Part shown: positions 1,428 through 18,885 of the stretch, in pieces
Layout: the number at the start of each line of letters is the position of its first letter
Numbering within the stretch: position 1 is the first letter of the stretch
Translations under genes and position numbers: made by a program
The notes under the pieces: model-generated
Database searches by the model: none
Told to the model about the DNA's origin: nothing
The model's input: only the letters and a program-made list of their open reading frames with translations
Assembly (NCBI GenBank): GCA_903828635.1
Contig: CAIKMY010000185.1
Span: 1-36,401 of the forward strand
Direction: 5' to 3'
From: an uncultured Acidobacteriota bacterium
Lineage (GTDB): Bacteria; Acidobacteriota; Blastocatellia; RBC074
Length of the DNA: 36,401 nucleotides

Positions 1428-1700
1428 GTGGGGTTTATCTTCCGCGGATTGCTTATAATCTTCATCTTCTCGCTGATTGTCTATTTGTTGAAGGCAGTTG
1501 CGAGGTTGCGGTTTCATCTGAATGGAACGATGCGTGACCTGCGCCATATCAGGGACAGGATCGACCTTCCACAAGGGGGCAGTCGCGAGGCGGTTCGCTG
1601 TGCCACCTGCGGAACTTTTCTTGATCGTCGCGAGGCGCTGATTCTCAGGTCGCGCGGGAGTGAGCAGGCTTTCTGCTCGAAAGAGTGCATCGCCGGGTAG
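1428..1700 (+). CDS. Small membrane protein with C-terminal CxxC / CSxxC zinc finger (PP0621-like)
   Basis: This 90-residue protein has one N-terminal membrane helix (about residues 5-22), a short basic linker, and a C-terminal metal-binding half with CATCGTF near residue 62 and FCSKEC near residue 84. The pair of Cys doublets is typical of the small MYND-like PP0621 family, whose function is unknown. The start is GTG at 1428, with GGAGG ending 4 bases before it. The next gene's longest reading overlaps this one by 16 bases, but a later ATG there is more likely. Confidence 0.8.
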
Positions 1701-1753
1701 TATCACTAATAAAATGCTACAGGGCCTGGTGCCGGCTGTTTCTGTTTAGCTAT

Positions 1754-4420
1754 ATGAGACTCATCAAGATTCTGACAATCATCGGTTTTTTGACCATGGG
1801 TTTTCTCTCGCTGCCATTTGTTGGCAGCGGCGCCTCGACGCCTTCGGTACGTATGTCGGCCGTGGAGGAGACGACCCGTCAGGCATTGGCGATATTGCGT
1901 GACTCCTGCTGGCAATGTCACGGTGAGGACCGGATGGGCGGACTCGACCTGCGTACCCGCGAGAGTGCCCTCAGAGGGGGTAGTCGCGGAGCGGCAATCA
2001 TCCCGGGAAACTCCGGCGAGAGCCTCGTCTACAAGTATGTTGCGGGCAAGGTGAGCCCACGGATGCCGCTTGGCGGGGAGTTGACTGCTGACCAGATAGC
2101 GCTGCTCGGCCGCTGGATCGACTCCGGAGCGGCCTGGGAAGAGGGGGTGGTGGCAACCGTCGCGCCAAAAGCGCCACCCTCCGCCGAGGCTGGTCGCGCG
2201 AAGATCACCGATGCTGATCGCGCCTACTGGTTCTTTCGCTCACCGGTTACTCCCGGGATTCCGAAGGTGAGTGGTAATGGATGGGCGTTCAACCCGATAG
2301 ACAATTTCATCCTTGCCGGGCTTAACGACCGAGGACTTGCTCCGTCGCCCGATGCCGATCGCCGAACCCTGTTGCGACGGGTCACCTTTGACCTCACCGG
2401 GCTGCCACCGACCCCTGAAGAGATCGATGCTTTTCTCGCTGATCGTTCGCCGCAAGCATGGGAGAAGGTGGTCGATCGGCTGCTCGCCTCGTCACGCTAT
2501 GGTGAACGCTGGGCACAGCACTGGCTCGACGTCGTCCGTTTCGGCGAAACCAACGGCTTCGAGCTCGACCAGGATCGCGATCAGGCATGGCGCTATCGTG
2601 ACTATGTGGTTCGCTCTCTCAACGATGACAAGCCGTATGACAGTTTTCTTCGCGAGCAGATCGCCGGAGACGAGATCGATCCGGAGAGCTTCGAGATGCG
2701 CGTCGCCACGGGCTTTCTGCGTGCCGGCCCGCAGCACATCGTTGCTGGTAATCAGGATCCGGCAGTCAACCGGCAGGAATGGCTGACGGAGGTTATGTTT
2801 GGGGTTGGCAACGGGATCATGGGACTGACCGTTGGCTGTGCACGGTGTCACGATCACAAGTTCGATCCAATACTGCAAGCCGATTTCTACCGGCTGCAAT
2901 CTTTTTTTGCCGGCTCTGATAACCTCGACTTTCAGCAAGTGACCAGTGAGCAGGAGGCCGCCTTCAAGGCGGCCCAGGCAGCTCACGAACAGAAGCTCAA
3001 GCCGATAAAGGAGCAGATTGCCGCGATTGAACGTCCATACCGGGAGCGGCTGAAGGCTGAGAAGCAATCACGGCTTGAACCGGCCTACGCTCAGGCTCTG
3101 ACGAAGCCCGCCGAGCAGCGCAGCGAACTGGAGAAGCAGACGGCGAAGGATGCCCAGAGGATGCTCAACATCAGCTGGGAAGAGCTGGTCGCCTCCCTCA
3201 CCCCGGAGGATCGTCAGCGCCGGGCAGCCTTGCGCCAGCAGATGCATCGCCTGAACCTCTTTACGCCGACACCGCTGCCCAGGGCCCTTGCCGTCTCGGA
3301 CAAGATCTGGCCGGTACCAACGATGCACATTCTCAAAGCGGGCGATACCAGTCGTCCGGCTGCCGAGGTGCGGCCAGGATTCCTGACCGCGCTGCTCTCG
3401 CCGACTGCTTCCTGGGATGCGGCAATCACACCGGTCGAGAAGGGCGGGTTCAAGGCGACCGGACGCAAACTGACACTGGCGACGTGGCTGACCTCGCCCG
3501 ATAACCCGCTGACGGCGCGTGTCATGGTCAATCGCCTCTGGCATTACCATTTTGGCCGCGGGATCGTCGCTACACCCAACGATTTCGGGCGCAATGGACA
3601 GCCCCCGACCCACCCGCAATTGCTTGACTGGCTGGCGACCGAATTTGTCAGGTCCGGCTGGTCGATCAAGCAGATGCATCGTCTGATGCTTCTCTCGCAT
3701 ACTTACCGTCAGTCATCCGCCGTCAATCCCGCCAGTGTGGCAATTGATCCGGAGAACAAGCTGCTCTGGAGAATGAATCGGCTCCGACTCGACGCCGAAG
3801 CTCTGCGTGACTCGACGCTGGCTGTCGCCGGCAACCTCACTGAGGAGCTCGGCGGACCATCAATTCGTGTCCCGCTCGAGCCCGAGGTCTACGATACCAT
3901 TTTCACCGAGGCCGAGCCTGACAATCTCTGGCCGGTGCACCCCGATCCGCGCCAGCATTATCGCCGCAGCCTCTATCTCATCCGCAAACGCAACGTTCGA
4001 CTGCCGATGTTTGTCGCCTTCGATTCACCCGATATGATGAGCTCCTGCGGTGCTCGCAGCGTCAGCGTTCACGCTCTTCAATCACTGACACTGATCAATA
4101 GTGCCTTTATGCTCGACCAAAGTCGCCTTCTTGCCGCACGCCTGCTGCGTGAAGCGGGAGGCAATCAGGCTCGGGCAATCGATCGCCTCTACCGGCTGAC
4201 AGTTGGCAGACCGCCGCGACCCGGTGAGGCTCGCCTCGCCGCCAGCTTCATTGCTTCGCAGTCGCTGATCGTCGCGGAGCGTCTGCGCAAGGGAGAGCCG
4301 GTTGCCACACTCCCCGCTTCGACTCCATCTTCTTCCGATATCAGTCCGGCGACTGCTGCCGCCTGGGTTGACCTCTGTCTGGCGACCATGAACCTTAATG
4401 AATTCATCTATCTGAGGTAG
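1754..4420 (+). CDS. Planctomycete cytochrome / DUF1549 / DUF1553 (PSCyt1-PSCyt2-PSD1) protein
   Basis: This 888-residue exported protein starts at ATG 1754, which opens directly on a signal-peptide-like segment ([18 protein letters not shown]). An earlier in-frame start at 1685 would add a charged extension and overlap the previous gene. Near the N-terminus is a PSCyt1 domain with a c-type heme motif CWQCH (DNA about 1905-1919) and the usual MPLGG and LGRWIDSGA elements. DUF1549 follows, with [11 protein letters not shown] and [12 protein letters not shown], then a charged, probably coiled linker, and DUF1553 (PSD1) with [20 protein letters not shown] and [14 protein letters not shown]. These proteins are nearly always encoded beside a DUF1501 protein, as here 5 bases downstream. 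A role in periplasmic polysaccharide or sulfated-glycan handling has been proposed for the pair but is not established. Confidence 0.93.
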
Positions 4421-4425
4421 TCGTT

Positions 4426-5871
4426 ATGAAGCACACCGCCCCTCACTGGTCACTCTTTCCCTCCCGCCGGCAGTTTCTTTCACAGGCCGCTAACGGCTTT
4501 GGTGCCGTCGCGCTTTCGGCTCTCATGGCCGGAGAGAATCGCCTGCTTGCCGGGGAGAAGTCATCCGGCCTGGTCAATCCGCTGGCACCGCGCCAGCCGC
4601 ATTTCAAGGCGAAAGCGAAATCGGTCATCTTCCTCTTCATGGTCGGCGGTCCGAGTCAGATGGAGACCTTCGATCCGAAGCCGGTTCTCGATCGTCTTGA
4701 CGGACAGCCATTGCCACCGAGCTTTGGCGAGGTCAAAAGCCAGTTTGTCAAAGTGGGAACGCCACTGATGGGCAGTGCCTGGAAATTTGCCCGACACGGT
4801 CAGTCCGGCATGGAGATTTCTGAGCTCTTTCCTCATATCGCCACCTGTGCCGACGATCTTGCCGTTATCCGTTCCTGCTACTCCGAGAGCTTCGTCCACG
4901 CGCCGGCAATGTACCAGATGACTAGCGGGCGCGTGCTTGCCGCCCATCCCAGTCTCGGAAGCTGGGTTACTTACGGGCTTGGCAGCGAGAGCGAAAACCT
5001 TCCCGCTTACTGTGTCCTCACTCAACCCGAGGGACTTCCCGAGGGAGGGGCGCCAATGTGGGGAGCCGGTTATCTCCCAACCGTTCACCAGGGAACCGTT
5101 CTGCGCAATGGTGCCACCCCGATTCTTCACCTTGCGCCTCCAAAGGAGATTGGCAAGCGACAGCAGCGAAACCTTCTTGACTACCTCCGCCGGGTAAACG
5201 AGCTTCATAACACTGAACAAGACAACGAACTAAATGCGCGGCTCTCTGCCTATGAACTGGCCTATCGCATGCAGCAGCACGCCCCCGAGGCCGTTGATAT
5301 CAGCCGTGAAACTGTGGCTACCCGCAATCTCTACGGCCTCGACGACAAGGAGACCCGCGAATTTGGCACTCGCTGCCTCCTGGCGCGGCGACTTGTCGAG
5401 CGTGGGGTGCGCTTTGTCCTCCTCTTTTCCGGTGGGGGACCAGTCAGCTCCCAGTGGGATGCCCACGATAATATCAAGTCCAACCACGAACAGATGTGTC
5501 GCTGGACCGATAAGCCGATCGCCGGACTCCTCAAGGATCTCCGCAGCCGCGGCCTTCTCGATGAAACGCTCGTCATCTGGGGCTCTGAGTTCGGACGCAC
5601 CCCGGTCTCCGAGAATGGAAAGGGGCGTGATCATAACCCAACCGCCTTCACTATCTGGATGGCCGGCGGCGGGGTTAAAGGTGGTCAGGTCATTGGGCAG
5701 ACCGATGACCTCGGGTTTAAGACCGTCGGTGAACGCTACCACCCGCGTGACATCCACGCTACCATGCTTCACCTCCTCGGTCGTGACCAGATGAAGCTGA
5801 CCTATCTTCATAATGGTCGTAATGAGCGGCTGACCGACTTTGGCGGGCGCCTCATCGAGCCGATTGTTTAA
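4426..5871 (+). CDS. DUF1501 protein (Tat-exported, sulfatase-like fold)
   Basis: This 481-residue protein is the usual partner of PSD1 proteins. The N-terminus [20 protein letters not shown] is a twin-arginine signal, which implies folding in the cytoplasm before export. Family hallmarks are [18 protein letters not shown] (about 66-83), the [19 protein letters not shown] stretch, [33 protein letters not shown] and a C-terminal HATMLHLLG. The fold is related to alkaline phosphatases and sulfatases, but the enzymatic activity is unproven. It is separated from the PSD1 gene by only 5 bases and is almost certainly in the same operon. Confidence 0.93.
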
Positions 5872-7060: not shown

Positions 7061-9205
7061 TCAGCGTCCGGTCAGCCAGCCGGCGAGGGTGGCGTGGGAT
7101 GGTCTCTTCTTCTCAACGATGAGGTCGGCAGCCTTACCAAACCGGGAATAGATCTCGCGGATCGATGATACCTCAAATGCATCACCGGTCTGGTAAAGGT
7201 AGAGCGGTGAGAGGGTCGAGAGGGCGATGGCCGTGGTGAAGTCACCGGCGCGTCGCAATCCTGGTATCGGGAGTCTGGAGACGAACTCTTCATCACTCTC
7301 GTTACGGAATCCGGCTGTATCGACGATCATGCGGTCAATTTTTGCGCTGAAGCCGCGAGCGAGCAAGGCTGCCGGGCCAGCCTCACCAGTGGCCACGAGG
7401 TTGACCTCGGTTGCCGGGTACCTGCTTCGAGTGTAGGCCAGCGCAGTGAGGATATCCTGTACCCGCAGTGCCTGGTCGGTCCGATTGTAGGTGGTAAAGA
7501 ATTTGATCTCCTCGGGCACCTGACGACCGCCGGGAAAGGTCTTGACGACCACGACACGATGACCGGCCCGAAGCAGTGAGTCACGCCAGACGGTCGTCTC
7601 GGCATCAATCCGCTCTGGTGCCTGAAGCGGATCAACGATCAGTGAGACCGGAGCATTGGCGGCAGCCTTCTCGCCGGCGCTGATATAGAGGCGCACGATG
7701 TCTCCCTGCTCGCGCCGTGAGGTGACAACGGCTTTGGTCCTGATCCCGCTGGTGGTGGCAAAGGATGCCGGAACCGTAGCGGCTTCAGCCTCGATGAGTT
7801 CACTCTCTTTGGGCGAGGAGGCGGCAACCGCGTGGCGGAATGTCCTGCCAAAGCTCTCGCGGTAGCGGCTGAGACCGGGGGCGTCAGCCGGGAAGGCCGC
7901 GCGAAGCTGCTGCTTTCGGCTCTCGATGAGAGCGTTGATCAGTCGCGGCTCGTCGAGCTCTCCTTCCGGGCGCGGCTTGCCGTAAAAGACCAGCAGATCG
8001 GTTGCCGGCAGGACGCCCCCACCCCTCTCACGCAGCAGGGTGCTCTCGGTTCTGCCAAGCATCCAGCGCGCAAACCAGGTGTAAACAGCCTCACGGCTGT
8101 CGAGATTGTAGTTGTGCGGGGCGTTGATCTGCACTGTCGTCAGTTTGTCTTCAGCGCCAAGCAGCCGGTAGATTGCGCGGGTTGCCGGATATTCCTCGAT
8201 CCAGGTATTTCGTGTCCAGTCGCCGGTCGCCGAGATCATGACCATCGGGCGCGGCGCGGCCAGGGCCCCGATTTCGACATTTTCGGTGTCGATTCGCAGG
8301 TTTGGCGCATTTTCACAGAGACTGCCACCCTGCATGACGTATGAGATCATATTAACCGGGCCGGAGATCTTTATTCGATCCTCGATGGCTGCCAGCAGAA
8401 AGGTCTGAGTCCCGCCCCCGGACTCGCCGGTGACCCCGATCCGCCCGGGATCGACTTCCGGAAGGCTCAACAGCAGGTCGACTGAGCGGATGCTGTTCCA
8501 GAGCTGCAGACCGAGGAGATTGACACTCCAGAGTGTCTCCCGGTCAAAACCCTCACGATGGCCGATGGCGAATCGATGGCTGATCGCCGCACTGTCATTG
8601 TAGCCAACCATGTCGTAGGTGAAGGCGACGTAGCCTTGCATGGCGAAGTTGGCCGCACGCGCCGGGGTCGAGTTGAGATTGGAACTCTCGATGCGACCGT
8701 AAGTCCAATGGCCATGGGGGCAGAGAACCGCCGGAACCTTTGATCCATCGGTAACCTTTGGCCGGTAGAGGTTGCCGGTGACGTAAAAACCCGGCAGGCT
8801 CTCAAAATAGACCTTCTCGACAGTGTAGCTGCCACGATCGATCCGATCGGTCATCCGCGCGTTGAGCGGTGCCTTTGCCGGCATTGGCAGGAGTCCGGAG
8901 GCCGCGAGAATCTGGCCACGCAGATATTCCGCCCGCTCCAGCCACTCCTCTCGAGTTCGATACTCACGCGGGGTGTACTTGAGGTCGAGGTGCCTGATCT
9001 CCTTCAGGCGCCGGTCCGCAGATGGTATGGCCGTACCCTGGGCAAATGATTTCCCGGGTGGCGCCGGTAACAGGGTTATCGGCAGCGGCTGCAGGAATAT
9101 CGTCGTCAGCAGCACTGCCAGGGTGACAATTGGCAGACGATGGAGGCGCCGGATTCTTCCGGCAATGCTTATCACTCTTCCTCTGGTCACAGTTACTTTG
9201 ATCAC
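7061..9205 (-). CDS. Secreted alpha/beta hydrolase, acetyl xylan esterase-like
   Basis: This 714-residue protein has an N-terminal hydrophobic segment (about residues 24-48) that ends in a likely signal cleavage region. The hydrolase domain (about 85-400) carries the oxyanion-loop LCPHGHW, the nucleophile elbow GVTGESGGGTQ (Ser about 262), SATGDW with a candidate Asp about 329, and NAPHNYNLDSRE with His about 364. This arrangement fits the acetyl xylan esterase/dienelactone hydrolase-like family. The C-terminal 300 residues look like a second, degenerate alpha/beta-fold module (RVVVVKTFPGG, ALAYTRSRYP, LVATGEAGPAA). The ATG overlaps the stop of the small upstream gene as ATGA, implying coupled translation. 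The substrate is probably a plant or microbial ester, but this cannot be read directly. Confidence 0.85.
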   Translation of the reverse strand: MIKVTVTRGRVISIAGRIRRLHRLPIVTLAVLLTTIFLQPLPITLLPAPPGKSFAQGTAIPSADRRLKEIRHLDLKYTPREYRTREEWLERAEYLRGQILAASGLLPMPAKAPLNARMTDRIDRGSYTVEKVYFESLPGFYVTGNLYRPKVTDGSKVPAVLCPHGHWTYGRIESSNLNSTPARAANFAMQGYVAFTYDMVGYNDSAAISHRFAIGHREGFDRETLWSVNLLGLQLWNSIRSVDLLLSLPEVDPGRIGVTGESGGGTQTFLLAAIEDRIKISGPVNMISYVMQGGSLCENAPNLRIDTENVEIGALAAPRPMVMISATGDWTRNTWIEEYPATRAIYRLLGAEDKLTTVQINAPHNYNLDSREAVYTWFARWMLGRTESTLLRERGGGVLPATDLLVFYGKPRPEGELDEPRLINALIESRKQQLRAAFPADAPGLSRYRESFGRTFRHAVAASSPKESELIEAEAATVPASFATTSGIRTKAVVTSRREQGDIVRLYISAGEKAAANAPVSLIVDPLQAPERIDAETTVWRDSLLRAGHRVVVVKTFPGGRQVPEEIKFFTTYNRTDQALRVQDILTALAYTRSRYPATEVNLVATGEAGPAALLARGFSAKIDRMIVDTAGFRNESDEEFVSRLPIPGLRRAGDFTTAIALSTLSPLYLYQTGDAFEVSSIREIYSRFGKAADLIVEKKRPSHATLAGWLTGR

Positions 9206-10968: not shown

Positions 10969-12909
10969 ATGATCAGGAATGATAAATACCGAATGTTGGC
11001 AGGGCTGCTGGTGGTTTTCCCGCTGGTCTTGCTGTTTGTCGGGGCGCAGACGACGGAGCAGCCGGAGGTTGCTGCGCGCGTAGTCTCGATCCTGCAGGTC
11101 GATGGAATGCTGTTCAAGGATCTCAACAAGAATGGAAAACTTGACAGATATGAAGACTGGAGGCAGCCGACCGAAGCACGTGTTGCGGATCTGGTTGGGC
11201 AGATGACGATCGAGGAGAAGGCCGGGACAATGGTTGGACCATCCCTGACCGTCGGCCCGAATGGCGGGGTCAGCGAACAACCGACTTTCATGGTCAATCC
11301 ATTCAATCCCGGCCCGCCGACAATGGTCTCACCGGCAACGGCAGACGTGCTCAACAATCGCCACATCATTCAGTTCATCATTCGTGACAACCTGGCACCA
11401 AAGTCGATGGCCAACTGGCTTAACGCGGTGCAGCAGATGGCCGAGGGCACACGCCTCGGCATTCCGGTTCTCTTTGTCACCAATCCGCGCAACATTCAGG
11501 GGGTGGGGGCCGTCTTTGGCATTACTGAGGCGGGGAGCGCCTTTTCTCAGTGGCCGGGAACGCTTGGGTTGGCGGCGACACGCGACCCGGTGCTCGTCGA
11601 GGAGTTTGGCCGCATTGCCGCCCGGGAATATCTCTCTGTCGGGCTGCGTGGCGCCTATCATCCGACCGCCGATGTGGCCACTGAACCACGCTGGGGCCGC
11701 TTTCGCGAGACTTTCGGCGAGGACGCCAACCTGACGGCACAAATGATCACCGCCTACATCCGCGGTTTCCAGGGGAGAAGGCTCGGACCGCGAAGCGTTG
11801 CCCTCGTCACCAAGCACTTTCCCGGAGCCGGCCCGGCGCTGGGTGGCCAGGATGCCCACTTCACATGGGGGAAGAACCAGGTCTATCCGGGCAGGAACCT
11901 TGAGTTCCACCTGCAGCCGTGGAAGGCCGCGATCGCCGAGGGAACCGCGATGATCATGCCCTACTATGCCGTCCCGAAGGGCATGACCAGCGAGGATGTC
12001 GGCATGTCCTACAACAAGGAGATCGTCACCGGGATGCTGCGTACCCGCCTTGGTTATCAGGGGGTGGTCAATTCCGATACCGGTATTACTATTAACATGC
12101 CGTGGGGAGTCGAGTCGCTAAGTCTCAGGGATCGTTACCGCAAGGCTATCGAGGCCGGAGTTGATCGTCTCGGCGGAGATCTGACGCCGGAGATTATTGT
12201 CGATCTCGTCAAGAGTGGCGCCGTTACCGAAGCCCGGATCGATGAATCGGTCAGGCGCATACTTCGCATCCATTTTGGATTGGGGATCTTCGAGAATCCA
12301 TACGCCAATCCCGAAGAGGCGGCGCGCACCGTGCGTCGCAGGGAGTTTCAGGAGAAGGGGGATATTGCCCAGCGCAAGTCGATCGTTCTCCTCAGGAATG
12401 CTGATGAGCTTTTGCCGCTGAAGAGCGGGACGAAGATCTACGTCGAAAATATCGATCCGGCGATTGCCTCGAAGTTCGGCTTTGTCTCGACCACCAATCC
12501 GGAGGAGGCTGATGTCGCCATCGCCCGCGTCTTTTCCAGTCGTGACGCCGGCTACCTTGGAGCCAACAGCAACGCCCCGATCGATCTGACGCTGCCGGCA
12601 GAGCAGGTCGCGAAGTTACAGTCATTGATGAAGAAGAGACCAACCATCCTTGCCGTACAGTTTGAGCGCCCGTTGGTGATCCCTGAACTGGCAGCCGGAT
12701 CGGCAGCTCTCCTCGCCACTTTTGGTGTCACTGACGAGGCGCTTCTCGATGTTATTTTCGGCAAATTCACTCCAACCGGCAAGCTGCCATTCGAGATCCC
12801 CTCGTCGATGGAGGCGGTACGCAACCAGCTCGAGGACATGCCTTACGATTCGAAAGATCCTCTCTTTCGTTTTGGCCATGGGCTTGGCTATCGTCAGGTC
12901 AGTCGCTGA
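10969..12909 (+). CDS. Exported glycoside hydrolase family 3 enzyme
   Basis: This 646-residue protein has an N-terminal membrane/signal segment (about 9-26). Near residue 50 there is a calcium-binding EF-hand-type loop DLNKNGKLDRYE, then the GH3 start RVADLVGQMTIEEKAGTM. The (beta/alpha)8 domain contains KHFPGAG (residues 282-288) and GVVNSDTG, where Asp370 is the expected catalytic nucleophile. The C-terminal domain (about 400-640) carries RRKSIVLLRNA-type and GKLPFEIP motifs of the second GH3 domain. GH3 enzymes remove terminal beta-linked sugars such as glucose or xylose; the exact sugar is not clear. The DUF3810 gene follows after 42 bases. Confidence 0.92.
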   Translation: MIRNDKYRMLAGLLVVFPLVLLFVGAQTTEQPEVAARVVSILQVDGMLFKDLNKNGKLDRYEDWRQPTEARVADLVGQMTIEEKAGTMVGPSLTVGPNGGVSEQPTFMVNPFNPGPPTMVSPATADVLNNRHIIQFIIRDNLAPKSMANWLNAVQQMAEGTRLGIPVLFVTNPRNIQGVGAVFGITEAGSAFSQWPGTLGLAATRDPVLVEEFGRIAAREYLSVGLRGAYHPTADVATEPRWGRFRETFGEDANLTAQMITAYIRGFQGRRLGPRSVALVTKHFPGAGPALGGQDAHFTWGKNQVYPGRNLEFHLQPWKAAIAEGTAMIMPYYAVPKGMTSEDVGMSYNKEIVTGMLRTRLGYQGVVNSDTGITINMPWGVESLSLRDRYRKAIEAGVDRLGGDLTPEIIVDLVKSGAVTEARIDESVRRILRIHFGLGIFENPYANPEEAARTVRRREFQEKGDIAQRKSIVLLRNADELLPLKSGTKIYVENIDPAIASKFGFVSTTNPEEADVAIARVFSSRDAGYLGANSNAPIDLTLPAEQVAKLQSLMKKRPTILAVQFERPLVIPELAAGSAALLATFGVTDEALLDVIFGKFTPTGKLPFEIPSSMEAVRNQLEDMPYDSKDPLFRFGHGLGYRQVSR

Positions 12910-14130: not shown

Positions 14131-14240
14131 CCTGCAAAAAATAGTTTGCGGGCAGGTTGAGAATAACTTGACTTAGGTCTTTGTGGTGTGCAACATTCTC
14201 ATCGTGATCCGTCAAAGAGTTCGTTGATACCAGGTAGTGC

Positions 14241-14270
14241 TCGATAGTATCGAATAGTATCGAATAGTAC
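14241..14270. repeat. 10-bp tandem repeat, three copies
   Basis: TCGATAGTAT, CGAATAGTAT and CGAATAGTAC lie head to tail with a 10-base period. Confidence 0.75.
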
Positions 14271-14422
14271 CAAACACAAGCCATTCTGCGCTTTGGTTGG
14301 TAACAGCATATTCGAACACTTTCAAATACCGTTAAATAATTCAGACCTTCAACTTTTTAACATATTATTGGGTCACACCCACCTTTCAGGCAGTTTGCGG
14401 ATGTAGTAAACGGTTTCAGACC

Positions 14423-14434
14423 GTGACATATCAC
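14423..14434. promoter_or_regulatory. GTGA-N4-TCAC inverted repeat
   Basis: GTGACATATCAC has perfect GTGA/TCAC half-sites four bases apart, resembling CRP/FNR-family operators. The GTGACATA half is repeated at 14527 and 14541. It lies about 460 bases upstream of the rhodopsin start. Confidence 0.35.
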
Positions 14435-14474
14435 AATCAGATTCTCATTGGCTTCTGATCTGAATGTATCTGAT

Positions 14475-14508
14475 CAGGATCTGACTGAACCTGAGCAGGA
14501 TCTGACTG
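14475..14508. repeat. 13-bp direct repeat
   Basis: CAGGATCTGACTG occurs at 14475-14487 and 14496-14508, a period of 21 bases. Confidence 0.75.
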
Positions 14509-14523
14509 GATAGCAAAGACACG

Positions 14524-14551
14524 AATGTGACATAGTTAATGTGACATAGTT
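14524..14551. repeat. 14-bp tandem duplication containing GTGACATA
   Basis: AATGTGACATAGTT is exactly duplicated at 14524-14537 and 14538-14551. Each copy carries the GTGACATA word also seen at 14423. Confidence 0.85.
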
Positions 14552-14855
14552 GTCGATGCTTGTCCGGATACATAACCCGGATACTGTTCAAAGGCTTCAT
14601 CGATTTATCACTGCTGTCTCTCTGTTACTTATTCTTCTTTCTTCATCTTTGCTGATTATCGTTCTGTTCTTCAATTAAGCAGGGATTGTCAGGGTACGGG
14701 TGATACCGTAAGCCCGTTGCCGACCTGTTTGATTTCATAACCCGGCCTTTCAACCTGATGGCGAGATTGGCCGATCGCCCTATTCCTGCGTTACGAAGTG
14801 TAGTAAATGCGGGGTGGCGCAGCTCTGTCTTCGTCATTCTGCATCGGGCTCAACC

Positions 14856-14883
14856 AGTAATATCCTGAGTAATATCCTGGAGG
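14856..14883 (+). promoter_or_regulatory. 12-bp tandem duplication merging into the rhodopsin Shine-Dalgarno
   Basis: AGTAATATCCTG is duplicated at 14856-14867 and 14868-14879, and the second copy runs directly into GGAGG (14879-14883). This GGAGG lies 8 bases before GTG 14892 and decides that start. The next in-frame ATG (14910) would be 26 bases away, too far for initiation from this site. Confidence 0.8.
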
Positions 14884-14891
14884 TTAAGAAA

Positions 14892-15647
14892 GTGGAACCG
14901 ACATTGTCGATGAATCAGTATAGTCTCGTTACTAACCTCATGTCGCTGACCGTAGCGACGATGGGGGCATCAGCCCTGTTCTTTTTCACATCACGGCAAC
15001 TGGTCTCCCAGAAGTACCGTCTGGCTCTGAACGTTTCAGGCCTGGTGGTCGCGATTGCCTGTTATCACTATTTCAAGATTCTTGACAGCTTTACGCATGC
15101 CTATCAACTGGTAGATGGAGTCTACCAGGCGACGGGCATTCCGTTTAACGATGCCTACCGGTATGCAGACTGGCTGCTGACGGTGCCGCTGTTACTGGTA
15201 GAGCTGGTGGCGGTACTGAGTCTGTCGAAGGGAGAGGCTGGCGGCTTGCTGGCAAAGCTGACAATTGCCGCGACATTGATGATTGCTCTGGGATATCCGG
15301 GAGAGATTTCGAGTGACGCCTCGACACGTTGGACCTGGGGTATTCTGAGCACGATTCCTTTCCTTTACATTCTTTATGTTCTCTTCGTTCAGCTCAGCGC
15401 GGCGATCGATCGGCAGGTTGAGGGAGCGAGGGTTCTGATCCGCAATGCGCGGCTGCTGATTTTTGCCACGTGGGGATTCTACCCGATAGCCTATACAATC
15501 GGGACTCTGGGGCTTGGCAGTGGCGCGAGCACCGAGGTGGCGATACAGGTTGGCTACACGCTGGCGGATATCACTGCCAAGGCTGGTCTTGGCGTCTTCA
15601 TCTTTAACATTGCCAGAGTGAAGACGGCAGCGGAAGAGGCGGCATAA
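14892..15647 (+). CDS. Xanthorhodopsin-like light-driven proton pump
   Basis: This 251-residue, seven-helix retinal protein starts at GTG 14892. Helix C reads YRYADWLLTVPLLLVEL, giving proton acceptor Asp93, Thr97 and proton donor Glu104 (the DTE pump motif). His59 in ACYHYF matches the His that partners the acceptor in proteorhodopsins and xanthorhodopsins. Leu101 at the known tuning position predicts green absorption. Helix G carries the Schiff-base Lys230 (ADITAKAGLG) with Asp226. LGYPGEI and DASTRWTWGILSTIPFLYI are xanthorhodopsin-type sequences. Gly150 aligns with Trp138 of bacteriorhodopsin and with the glycine that opens the carotenoid fenestration in xanthorhodopsin. The downstream blh and crtY genes supply the chromophore. 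Ion specificity and antenna binding are predictions. Confidence 0.96.
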   Translation: MEPTLSMNQYSLVTNLMSLTVATMGASALFFFTSRQLVSQKYRLALNVSGLVVAIACYHYFKILDSFTHAYQLVDGVYQATGIPFNDAYRYADWLLTVPLLLVELVAVLSLSKGEAGGLLAKLTIAATLMIALGYPGEISSDASTRWTWGILSTIPFLYILYVLFVQLSAAIDRQVEGARVLIRNARLLIFATWGFYPIAYTIGTLGLGSGASTEVAIQVGYTLADITAKAGLGVFIFNIARVKTAAEEAA

Positions 15648-15659
15648 AGACTGTCGTGG

Positions 15660-15706
15660 GGATGATGGCCGGGCTGGCGCGAGACTTCCCGGTTCGGCCA
15701 TCATCC
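15660..15706. terminator. Long stem-loop between rhodopsin and blh
   Basis: GGATGATGGCCG (15660-15671) and CGGCCATCATCC (15695-15706) form a perfect 12-bp stem with a 23-base loop that can pair further inside. It starts 12 bases after the rhodopsin stop codon. There is no T-run (AAATAAC follows), so it may be a leaky terminator or a 3'-stabilising stem that allows more rhodopsin than Blh from one transcript. Confidence 0.6.
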
Positions 15707-15805
15707 AAATAACATCCGCCGACTACAGAGACACCGCCGATTCTCCTGCAGGGGAGTAGATGGTCAGTCTGAGGTTACTGGTAACAAGTTGGCAGATGAA
15801 CAGGG

Positions 15806-16951
15806 ATGCAAGCGGAACTGCAAGCAGAACTGAAGATGACAATTGAGGGCCGGCATCGTGGTCATCCGGCGGCGGCAACCCGGTGGTCGGTCGATGTGCC
15901 GGCGGTTGGCAGTTTATTGCTGGTACTCTTCGTTTCGCTGGCGTTCCCGCGGCTGATCGATTCCACTGGGGTGCAGTGGGCTCCGTGGGTAGTGGCGTTG
16001 CTCTTTTTCGGGTTGCCACATGGCGGAATCGATCATCGTATACCGGCATTGATGGTCGGGGGTTGGCAGCGAAGGGAGACGGTAATCTTTGTTATTGCCT
16101 ACCTGTTGGCGATCGGGCTCTTCCTTGGGCTATGGGGTGTGTCTCCGGATCTTGGGTTGTCTCTCTTTTTCCTTGTATCGCTTCTCCATTTTGGTCAGGG
16201 GGATGTTTACTGGAGCCGCAGTTACGGGCTGCTGGCGGAAACCGGGGCTGGTGCAGGTGGGGGAAGGTTTGGAGGTCTGTCACGTGCGGCATATAAGGTG
16301 CTGATGTTGCTGACACGCGGATCGCTGCCGGTGTTGCTGCCGTGGCTGGCTCATCCCGGTGAGTTTCAGCAGATCACGAGGGAGCTTGGAGGTTTTCTGC
16401 CGGGCTTGCGCCTCGATGGATGGGACGGGAATGGATGGGTGCGTGAGTGGTTGCTGCTGGCGATTTTACTGCTGTCGGTGTTGCAGATGGCCTGCGGGCT
16501 GTTGCTGGTCATTATTCGGCGGGGCAGGACAGGCGGCCGGCAGGTGTTGATGGCCTCCATCGTAGAAATTGCTGAGACGGCCCTGCTGATCATCGTTTTC
16601 TACCTGACGCCGCCGATTCCGGCCGTTGGCATCTATTTTCTCTGTTGGCATTCGGTGCGGCATATCTTTCGACTGATGGAGATGGCTGAGCCAATGAGCC
16701 GCCACCTTGGTCGTGGAGACTATTGGCGCGCCGTTGGCAGCCTGCACTGGCAGGCGATGCCGATGACCTTGGGGGCCATTCTCATCCTGAGTCTGATTCT
16801 CGTGCTGACCATGCTTGCCGGGATTGATGTGGGCCGGCTGGTCGTTCCGGCATTTCTTTTTGTCAGCGCGGTAACCTTTCCCCATTTTCTGGTTGTCGTC
16901 TGGATGGATTGCCGGCTGACGATTCCCGGGGCCGGACGACAACCAAACTGA
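15806..16951 (+). CDS. blh: Brp/Blh family beta-carotene 15,15'-dioxygenase
   Basis: This 381-residue membrane enzyme cleaves beta-carotene symmetrically into two retinals. Family histidines that bind iron are visible: GLPHGGIDH (His72, His77), SLLHFG (His128), CWHSVRHIF (His282, His286) and FPHFLVV (His360). Eight or so hydrophobic segments fit the family topology. The start is uncertain: ATG 15806 has only a weak CAGGG nearby, and ATG 15836 (residue 11) is an alternative. It lies 158 bases after the rhodopsin gene and 82 bases before crtY. The linkage with a rhodopsin makes the retinal-supply role close to certain. Confidence 0.95.
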   Translation: MQAELQAELKMTIEGRHRGHPAAATRWSVDVPAVGSLLLVLFVSLAFPRLIDSTGVQWAPWVVALLFFGLPHGGIDHRIPALMVGGWQRRETVIFVIAYLLAIGLFLGLWGVSPDLGLSLFFLVSLLHFGQGDVYWSRSYGLLAETGAGAGGGRFGGLSRAAYKVLMLLTRGSLPVLLPWLAHPGEFQQITRELGGFLPGLRLDGWDGNGWVREWLLLAILLLSVLQMACGLLLVIIRRGRTGGRQVLMASIVEIAETALLIIVFYLTPPIPAVGIYFLCWHSVRHIFRLMEMAEPMSRHLGRGDYWRAVGSLHWQAMPMTLGAILILSLILVLTMLAGIDVGRLVVPAFLFVSAVTFPHFLVVVWMDCRLTIPGAGRQPN

Positions 16952-17036
16952 AGAGTCTGACGCGGGAATTAACGCAGTCGTCAGCCGTTGGCTTGAGCAT
17001 CGTTGCTGTCATTAACTGTTTTGATGGAGGCCGGTG

Positions 17037-18314
17037 ATGTCGCCAGTAATCGCTGAGAAGAAAGATTGTCTGGATAATGACTCGACGCCGTCGATCGACT
17101 CCGGTCATCGTTACCTGGTGCTTGGAGCAGGGTGTGCCGGCCTGAGTCTTGTCTGGCACATGCTCGAGGCGGGAATCAACGATCCAATCCTGGTGCTTGA
17201 ACAGCGGCGTGAATATGTCAACGACCGGACATGGTGTTACTGGAATGTTGAACCGACAGCCTTTGATGATCTGGCTGATTTCTCGTGGTGTAAATGGGAA
17301 GTAGTGGCAGAGGGAACGACGGCCAAAGCCGAGGCTGGATCAGCGAGACTGCCCTATATTTTCCTCGCAAGTGACAGATTCTATCAACGGGTGCTTGACC
17401 GGATTGCCGCATCACCGAACGTGACGCTGCTGCTTGGTCAGCAGGTTCTCAGGGTTGAGGAGCGGGCCGATGCGGTCATCGTGCGCACCGCGGCGGCGAC
17501 CTATAGCGGCGAGCGGCTTTTTGACAGCAGCGGCTGGCGACCGGCAGCAGGTGGGCGGCACTCAAAATGGCTGCAGCACTTTCGTGGTCAGCGGATCAGG
17601 ACCGAGCGCCCGGTATTCAACCCGTCGCGTCTGACGCTGATGGATCATCGGGTTTCGCAGAAGGATGGCCCCCACTTCGTTTATCTGCTGCCTTTTTCTC
17701 CAAATGAGGCGTTGGTCGAGAATACCTATCTCTTTGCAGCCAGTATCTCACCAGCTCGCCACCGGGCCGAGATCGCCGACTATCTTGCACAATTCCACGG
17801 TCTTGGTCCGCGCGATTACGAGGTACTGGGTGAGGAGCACGGCACGATTCCGATGGGGGGAGGAGCGGGAGTCGTCAGGACGGATCGGATCGAGCGAATC
17901 GGTCTGGCAGGCGGAGCGGCCAGGTCCGCAACGGGTTATGCTTTTCTCAGAATCCAGCGTCAGTGTTGTGATATCGCCCGGCGGATGGCTGCAGGCAGCT
18001 TGAAGGCCCGGAGTGGCACTGTCCCGGGGGGGAGGAAGTATCGGATCTTTGATGCGATCATGCTCGCGGCGCTGGCTCGCTCGCCGCACCTTGCTCCAGC
18101 CTTCTTCACGACACTCTTTCAGCGATCTCCAGCCGAGAGCGTCGTTCGATTCCTGACCGAGCGCAGCAGTATCAGGGATGATATCTGGATTATCCGTTCG
18201 CTCTTCAAATGGGATTTTGTGCGCATGCTGTTGCGTATCTTCTGGCGGCAGCCGGAGAGTGAGGCACGACAGGTAATTGATTCGGCACCTCTGACAAAAG
18301 CGCTGCCGAGGTAA
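17037..18314 (+). CDS. crtY: Lycopene beta-cyclase CrtY
   Basis: This 425-residue flavoprotein converts lycopene to beta-carotene, the substrate of Blh. The N-terminal dinucleotide fold is YLVLGAGCAGLSLVWHMLEAG with LVLEQR closing the second strand. NDRTWCYW matches the conserved H/R-TWS-W segment of CrtY. Further family features are FDSSGWRP, the MDHRV and FVYLLPFSPNEALVENTY region, HGTIPMGGG and GLAGGAARSATGYAF. GGAGG (17026-17030) lies 6 bases before ATG 17037; a GTG at 17034 directly before it is an alternative start. crtE, crtB and crtI are absent nearby, so only the last step to beta-carotene is linked to the rhodopsin. It converges with the minus-strand gene ending at 18340. Confidence 0.93.
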   Translation: MSPVIAEKKDCLDNDSTPSIDSGHRYLVLGAGCAGLSLVWHMLEAGINDPILVLEQRREYVNDRTWCYWNVEPTAFDDLADFSWCKWEVVAEGTTAKAEAGSARLPYIFLASDRFYQRVLDRIAASPNVTLLLGQQVLRVEERADAVIVRTAAATYSGERLFDSSGWRPAAGGRHSKWLQHFRGQRIRTERPVFNPSRLTLMDHRVSQKDGPHFVYLLPFSPNEALVENTYLFAASISPARHRAEIADYLAQFHGLGPRDYEVLGEEHGTIPMGGGAGVVRTDRIERIGLAGGAARSATGYAFLRIQRQCCDIARRMAAGSLKARSGTVPGGRKYRIFDAIMLAALARSPHLAPAFFTTLFQRSPAESVVRFLTERSSIRDDIWIIRSLFKWDFVRMLLRIFWRQPESEARQVIDSAPLTKALPR

Positions 18315-18339: not shown

Positions 18340-18885
18340 CTATCTGACCGGTGACAGCCTCTCAAAGATGAGGGTTATTTGCGAACTCTTGACGCCAATT
18401 TCCCGAGTACGAAGGATTCTCAGTGCCCGGCCACCGTCGATCAATTCCCAGATCTCACTCGTGATCAGCGTCACCGGCTGGCCGCGGTCATCACCTGAGA
18501 TAGTCGATTTGAGCCGGAGGGACCGCCCCTTGTCGAGGACTTTGGCTTCAAGTTCCATGGTCCCGGCAATCGGGCGAACGACCTCGGCGGATGTTTCAGT
18601 ACCATCGAGTCGAAAGGTGAGCGGCTCTGATGGCTGCATTTTGCCGCGAATGCGCGTCTTCTGATCAATGGTCAATTCGTTCTTATCGCGAGTGACAAAG
18701 AGCAACAGGTCGGCATTGCCAAGGCCTCCGGTCAGACCCTCGCTGCGCTCGCGATTGAGCTGCCAATTCCCCTCAAATTCGGCAATTGTTGGCTGGCCTC
18801 CGGCATCCGTGGCGGTGAGGGAGAGCAGTCTGCTGACCAGCAGCAGGCTGACCACCGCAGACCGGGGGATAATCCCCGGCCTCAT
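18340..18885 (-). CDS. Small secreted protein, lipocalin-like
   Basis: The likely mature gene is 181 residues from ATG 18885, giving a signal-peptide N-terminus (MRPGIIPRSAVVSLLLVSRLL). The longer reading from 19182 overlaps the DUF4340 gene and has shadow-like composition. The rest is beta-rich: FEGNWQLNRERSEG, LTIDQKTRIRGK, LRLKSTISGDD and ITSEIWELIDGGRALRI, the pattern of small extracytoplasmic lipocalin-like domains. It follows the DUF4340 gene by 7 bases, so it belongs to the ABC operon. An in-frame ATG at 18912 is a possible alternative start. No specific function is recognised. Confidence 0.7.
   Translation of the reverse strand: MRPGIIPRSAVVSLLLVSRLLSLTATDAGGQPTIAEFEGNWQLNRERSEGLTGGLGNADLLLFVTRDKNELTIDQKTRIRGKMQPSEPLTFRLDGTETSAEVVRPIAGTMELEAKVLDKGRSLRLKSTISGDDRGQPVTLITSEIWELIDGGRALRILRTREIGVKSSQITLIFERLSPVR

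Follow-up and report, generated by a model that had tools for sequence, protein, structure and literature searches.

A rhodopsin-blh-crtY gene cluster and a separately encoded carotenoid pathway in an uncultured Acidobacteriota genus

The stretch of DNA analysed here (termed the window) is the 36,401 nt contig CAIKMY010000185.1 of assembly GCA_903828635.1, from an uncultured Acidobacteriota bacterium (Blastocatellia; RBC074). An original prediction, made from the sequence alone, had described a compact operon in it, consisting of a proton-pumping rhodopsin with a DTE motif, a Brp/Blh-type dioxygenase and a lycopene cyclase. We found all three genes, rho, blh and crtY, to be intact and on the + strand with gaps of 158 and 82 bp between them, and the predicted residue numbers to be exact when counted from the GTG codon at 14892. 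The sister species (LaPlata_bin-2064, genome G001) carries the same genes in the same order, their products being 85, 35 and 53 % identical to those of the window, respectively, and chance association is therefore excluded. As the sister genome is named Acidobacteria, the proposed assignment of the host to the Acidobacteriota or a related phylum was also supported.

The first gene (14892..15647, + strand) specifies a xanthorhodopsin (XR)-type rhodopsin of 251 aa, identified by its match to PF01036 (E-value 2.1e-40), by alignments, by a residue check and by its 85 % identical sister orthologue. A GGAGG ribosome site lies upstream of the GTG start, and the sister rhodopsin begins with ATG behind GGAGG and has an identical Met-Glu-Pro-Thr-Leu-Ser N-terminus, which supports the start at 14892. 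Numbered from this codon, alignment and residue check place the DTE motif at Asp93, Thr97 and Glu104, and the Schiff-base lysine at Lys230; the sister protein retains these residues. The best-ranked relatives of solved structure were psXR, Gloeobacter rhodopsin (GR), xanthorhodopsin and Kin4B8 (E-values 8e-83 to 3e-80), and as such we place the protein with the XR type rather than with the classical proteorhodopsins. With xanthorhodopsin, GR and Kin4B8 it shares sequence similarity along its whole length (E-values 2e-81 to 3e-80), the DTE motif, the retinal lysine and a glycine at the position of the carotenoid fenestration, whereas its host, an Acidobacteriota genus, sets it apart. Membership in this family suggests outward, light-driven proton pumping. 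It is conceivable that the retinal protein is instead a light sensor or a pump for another ion, given that sequence cannot fix function with certainty; this is favoured by no tool result, however, and we consider it very improbable in view of the DTE motif, of closest relatives that without exception are XR/GR-group proton pumps, of the far poorer matches to chloride and sodium pumps, and of the lack of any annotated transducer gene among the scanned neighbours.

The second gene, blh (15806..16951, + strand), encodes a putative Brp/Blh-type beta-carotene 15,15'-dioxygenase of 381 aa, which matched PF15461 (E-value 1.6e-52) and TIGR03753 (171 bits, cut-off 95). Five histidines (His72, His128, His282, His286 and His360), the presumed metal ligands of the family, are invariant across the nine aligned sequences; a Protein Data Bank search with Blh returned no meaningful match. 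At 35 % identity between the two species (window 15806-16951 versus L030:931-2145), Blh is far more diverged than the rhodopsin (85 %) or CrtY (53 %). The third gene (17034..18314, + strand, starting at GTG 17034 or ATG 17037) encodes a predicted FAD-dependent lycopene cyclase of the crtY family with 426 aa, with an above-cut-off match to PF05834 (E-value 3e-50); alignment showed that the invariant FAD motif GxGxxG and the WCxW motif are kept. Together, Blh and CrtY are predicted to produce retinal.

Upstream of rho lies an AT-rich region (14131..14891, + strand; ∼42 % GC versus ∼57 % around it) with short tandem repeats at 14457-14498 and 14524-14551. This is likely to be the promoter region; the sister contig covers just ∼80 bp upstream of rho. 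Between rho and blh we found an RNA hairpin lacking a U tract (15653..15720, + strand; -39.5 kcal/mol, z -4.4). The sister has an unrelated hairpin at the same place (-36.5 kcal/mol, z -4.9), which does possess a U tract, and a simple terminator scan listed neither of the two. The window hairpin is possibly an attenuator or a 3' stabilizer, and the two hairpins would fit rhodopsin being made in excess of the enzymes. Because a strong hairpin follows rho in both species, uniform co-transcription of the three genes is doubtful. The word operon in the original prediction should accordingly be taken to denote a cluster of genes on one strand.

The original prediction further held that lycopene would be made by genes unlinked to the cluster, and a search of the remaining genome (a 4.3 Mb draft in 482 contigs, 92 % complete, contamination 0.35 %) agreed with this. 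Neither crtB nor crtI is present in the 36.4 kb contig; instead, the sole PF00494 (crtB) match and the sole full-length crtI match of the genome adjoin on contig C436. The gene order there is photolyase, crtB, crtI, an alpha/beta hydrolase, a crtE-like prenyl synthase and a redoxin-like gene, after which come a glycosyltransferase resembling CruG/HpnB and, cut off where the contig ends, the first part of a second crtI-like gene. Candidate genes for the whole lycopene pathway are therefore present in the genome: crtI (TIGR02734, over its cut-off), crtB (PF00494) and a crtE-like gene (PF00348). In the sister the same cluster runs on, with crtI2 (CrtD-like) in full and then a CruF-like hydratase. 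Two further members of the family, G004 and G008, share the backbone of this cluster, to which G008 likewise adds crtI2 and a CruF-like gene; neither genome has a rhodopsin or a strong crtY match. For this reason the module looks to have been added to an older, apparently acyclic pathway, in line with the added minimal module that had been proposed. The simplest reading is that the C436-type cluster represents an ancestral pathway to carotenoid glycosides that had no cyclase and was later joined by rho-blh-crtY. In both genomes of the genus, the tandem pair of HpnC/HpnD-type synthases is missing, which most other genomes of the family seem to possess; the genus may thus differ in its synthesis of hopanoids or squalene.

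Among the window's 58 relatives, rhodopsin was confined to the two genomes of this genus, being absent from all nine other family genomes and from all 47 genomes of other families of the class. Across the phylum, eight of 396 sampled genomes (six of 211 genera) have one. Rhodopsin phototrophy in the Acidobacteriota is thus rare but not new, as rhodopsins have been published for Acidiparvus, a streamlined genus lacking carotenoid genes (UBA12189, Holophagaceae; PMC11561045). Acidiparvus shares with the present genus rhodopsin phototrophy in an Acidobacteriota host, the DTE motif and the green-absorbing Leu; its proteins, however, are proteorhodopsins in genomes without crtY, crtI, crtB or crtE (PMC11561045), whereas the window's genus has the XR type and a complete pathway.

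We consider it highly probable that rho-blh-crtY is a module for retinal-based phototrophy, which draws lycopene from C436 and was gained by an ancestor of the genus. This reading is carried by the presence of the three genes with intact motifs, the completeness of the pathway, the conservation of the cluster in a second species and its rarity elsewhere. If the genes are expressed, crtE, crtB and crtI of C436 would supply lycopene as part of the family's older carotenoid-glycoside pathway, CrtY would close the lycopene ends to give beta-carotene, and Blh would cleave beta-carotene into two retinals. The rhodopsin would then bind retinal on Lys230 and pump protons outward in the light, with Asp93 as the Schiff-base counterion and acceptor and Glu104 as the proton donor; in this heterotroph, the pump would thereby supplement the proton-motive force. 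Several observations weigh against this. CrtY falls below the NCBIfam cut-offs (104 of 209.5 bits for TIGR01790 and 67 of 215.2 bits for TIGR01789), making it a divergent member of the Pfam family rather than a named equivalog, and it is not certain that its product is bicyclic beta-carotene, i.e. that both ends are closed rather than one. CrtB of C436 scores below every NCBIfam phytoene-synthase equivalog cut-off, the relative of solved structure that ranks best bears the name of the C30 enzyme CrtM, and the crtE-like gene matches models of farnesyl synthase slightly better than those of geranylgeranyl diphosphate synthase. Furthermore, the hairpin after rho speaks against simple co-transcription, and the genome is 92 % complete. 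That the C436 pathway makes C40 compounds is suggested by its gene context (cruF and crtD-like genes in relatives) and by the C40 substrates that Blh and CrtY need.

The surroundings of the module differ between the two species. In the sister, contig C48 keeps the order of an esterase-like gene (the homologue of that at 7061 in the window), MreB, DUF3810, the homologue of the gene at 18340, DUF4340 and ABC genes; there, DUF3810 and the 18340 homologue are a few tens of bases apart with no module between them, an empty site. The sister's module lies at another site, beside a DUF885 gene that has just a distant paralogue in the window's genome. The module has therefore changed its place, or was gained or lost, after the two species diverged, and under the phototrophy reading the copy gained by the ancestor would now occupy different sites in the two sampled species. 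A search around the module gave no convincing terminal repeats of mobile elements. In the syntenic region of the sister, a GH3 family gene that neighbours the module in the window (10969-12909) is lacking as well, so that two blocks have been gained or lost here. At third positions of identical codons, the divergence of rho between the two species (0.41) lies within that of the other genes compared (0.27-0.41), and the GC content at third codon positions (GC3) of the module is similar to that of its neighbours; the module is thus not a recent arrival. That the two species had recently exchanged rho, considered in view of its 85 % identity against the 35 % of blh, was rejected on the same ground: divergence at third positions is equal across the genes compared, and the high identity of the strongly constrained rho reflects purifying selection. 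These comparisons also bear on the suspicion that the 36.4 kb contig or C436 is a binning or assembly artefact derived from another organism, for which a 482-contig draft that looks metagenome-assembled gives some cause. We find this barely credible, as the window flanks are syntenic with the sister and have orthologues in the family, the closest orthologues of C436 lie in that same sister, GC3 of the module equals that of its neighbours, the same module occurs in an independent genome, and contamination is just 0.35 %.

In a census of layouts (where the sister and L012 are represented by short contigs), rho, blh and crtY without crtE, crtB or crtI nearby were found in the window, the sister, L009, L012, L013 and L110. 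Six clusters (L017, L022, L024, L026, L027 and L108) also hold crtB and crtI; four loci (L008, L010, L023 and L106) have rho and blh only, among the genes sought; and rho stands alone at most Deinococcales, Meiothermus and cyanobacterial loci. The claim that the window's layout is less usual than complete clusters was upheld in that it is less common, but not to the point of being unique, a notion ruled out by the Isosphaeraceae-type Planctomycetota and by G344, which share it. In the crtEBIY-blh clusters, of the type known from marine proteorhodopsin bacteria, CrtY and Blh would likewise feed a rhodopsin, whereas crtE, crtB and crtI of the window's genome lie outside the module in a separate, older cluster. 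The Isosphaeraceae-type modules (L009, L012 and L013) have the same three genes without crtE, crtB or crtI nearby (in the L009 genome the best crtB match lies ∼275 kb from rho), and provide the closest relatives of CrtY outside the genus and, by tree, of Blh. Unlike the window, their blh-crtY pair is divergent from rho and their rhodopsin has Trp at the fenestration. In G344, which belongs to the same class but another family, a rho-crtY-blh triple is found at L110:5802-8883, with no crtE, crtB or crtI in 17 kb. Its rhodopsin combines the fenestration Gly with a Lys at the donor position (DTK), as in Exiguobacterium rhodopsin.

These relationships raise the question of whether the module has a single source. 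In the CrtY tree the genus groups with the Isosphaeraceae type (support 95/96), and in the Blh tree it does so with weaker support (85/84). In the rhodopsin tree that the original prediction had called for, rebuilt after the removal of misleading long branches, the window falls with XR, GR, Kin4B8 and the Deinococcales on the Gly-type side, and the Isosphaeraceae rhodopsins are Trp-type (support 96/91). An XR/GR-type rhodopsin may accordingly have been joined to a blh-crtY pair of the Isosphaeraceae (Planctomycetota) type, an origin compatible with the phototrophy module set out above and in keeping with the unlike gene order of the two groups. We lean slightly against it, as approximately unbiased (AU) tests rejected neither a grouping of the window rhodopsin with those of the Isosphaeraceae (p 0.112) nor its placement on the Trp-type side (p 0.135), and a single Gly/Trp switch plus a rearrangement would likewise account for the data. 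A firm claim of mosaic origin is therefore not upheld by these tests, and we regard such an origin as likely enough to mention but not established. In the same trees the rhodopsin, Blh and CrtY of L012, a record named Candidatus Kuenenia, all group with the Isosphaeraceae; its anammox label is probably a naming or binning error.

Gly150 of the window, which is also Gly in the sister, shares its alignment column with Gly156 (XR) and Gly153 (Kin4B8), the glycine to which the open carotenoid fenestration is ascribed (PMC13093654). Glycine occurs here in only three of 11 aligned Acidobacteriota rhodopsins (window, sister and L110). In addition, Thr154, Tyr201 and Thr205 of the window match in kind Thr157, Tyr204 and Ser208 of Kin4B8 in the alignment (PMC13093654), and the last of these positions, Thr in the window, is Met in XR and GR. 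The sequence would permit binding of an antenna. On a fuller version of this idea, the pump carries a carotenoid bound via the Gly150 fenestration and CrtY has two roles, feeding Blh and also making the family's acyclic carotenoid glycosides monocyclic, as a salinixanthin-like or xanthophyll-like antenna. The residues named above, the identical Gly and Thr pair of the sister and the CruG-like GT2, CrtD-like and CruF-like genes beside crtB and crtI in relatives are in its favour. We nevertheless think it unlikely: there is no CrtO among the crtI-family matches, in the window's own genome cruF would lie past the point where C436 stops, and a natural antenna is possibly lacking in some open-fenestration rhodopsins. 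By family search, there was also no CrtW among candidates for a 4-ketolase (CrtZ hydroxylases were not searched). Matches to PF00487 (FA_desaturase) in both genomes of the genus were considered as CrtW or CrtR for a hydroxy- or 4-keto-antenna, and rejected as lipid-type desaturases by motif. Less probable still is the combination of both ideas, that a heterotroph already possessing an older acyclic pathway for carotenoid glycosides acquired a three-gene mosaic, in which an antenna-capable rhodopsin is joined to a blh-crtY pair of Planctomycetota type, the cyclase being doubly used and monocyclic glycosides docking as the antenna.

If the cluster is the phototrophy module that we propose, a bacterium can become light-driven by the addition of three genes to an existing carotenoid pathway. 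An XR-type, antenna-capable rhodopsin with a complete retinal pathway would thereby be extended to an Acidobacteriota genus whose nine other family genomes have no rhodopsin. Moreover, a module sited differently in each of two species, alongside relatives with the older pathway only, offers a natural comparison for the spread of retinal phototrophy.

Elsewhere in the window, a class A RNase P RNA was identified at 246-661 (272 bits). At 1685-5871, a PSCyt1/DUF1549/DUF1553 protein is followed by a DUF1501 protein; this pair, here in an Acidobacteriota contig, is best known from the Planctomycetota.

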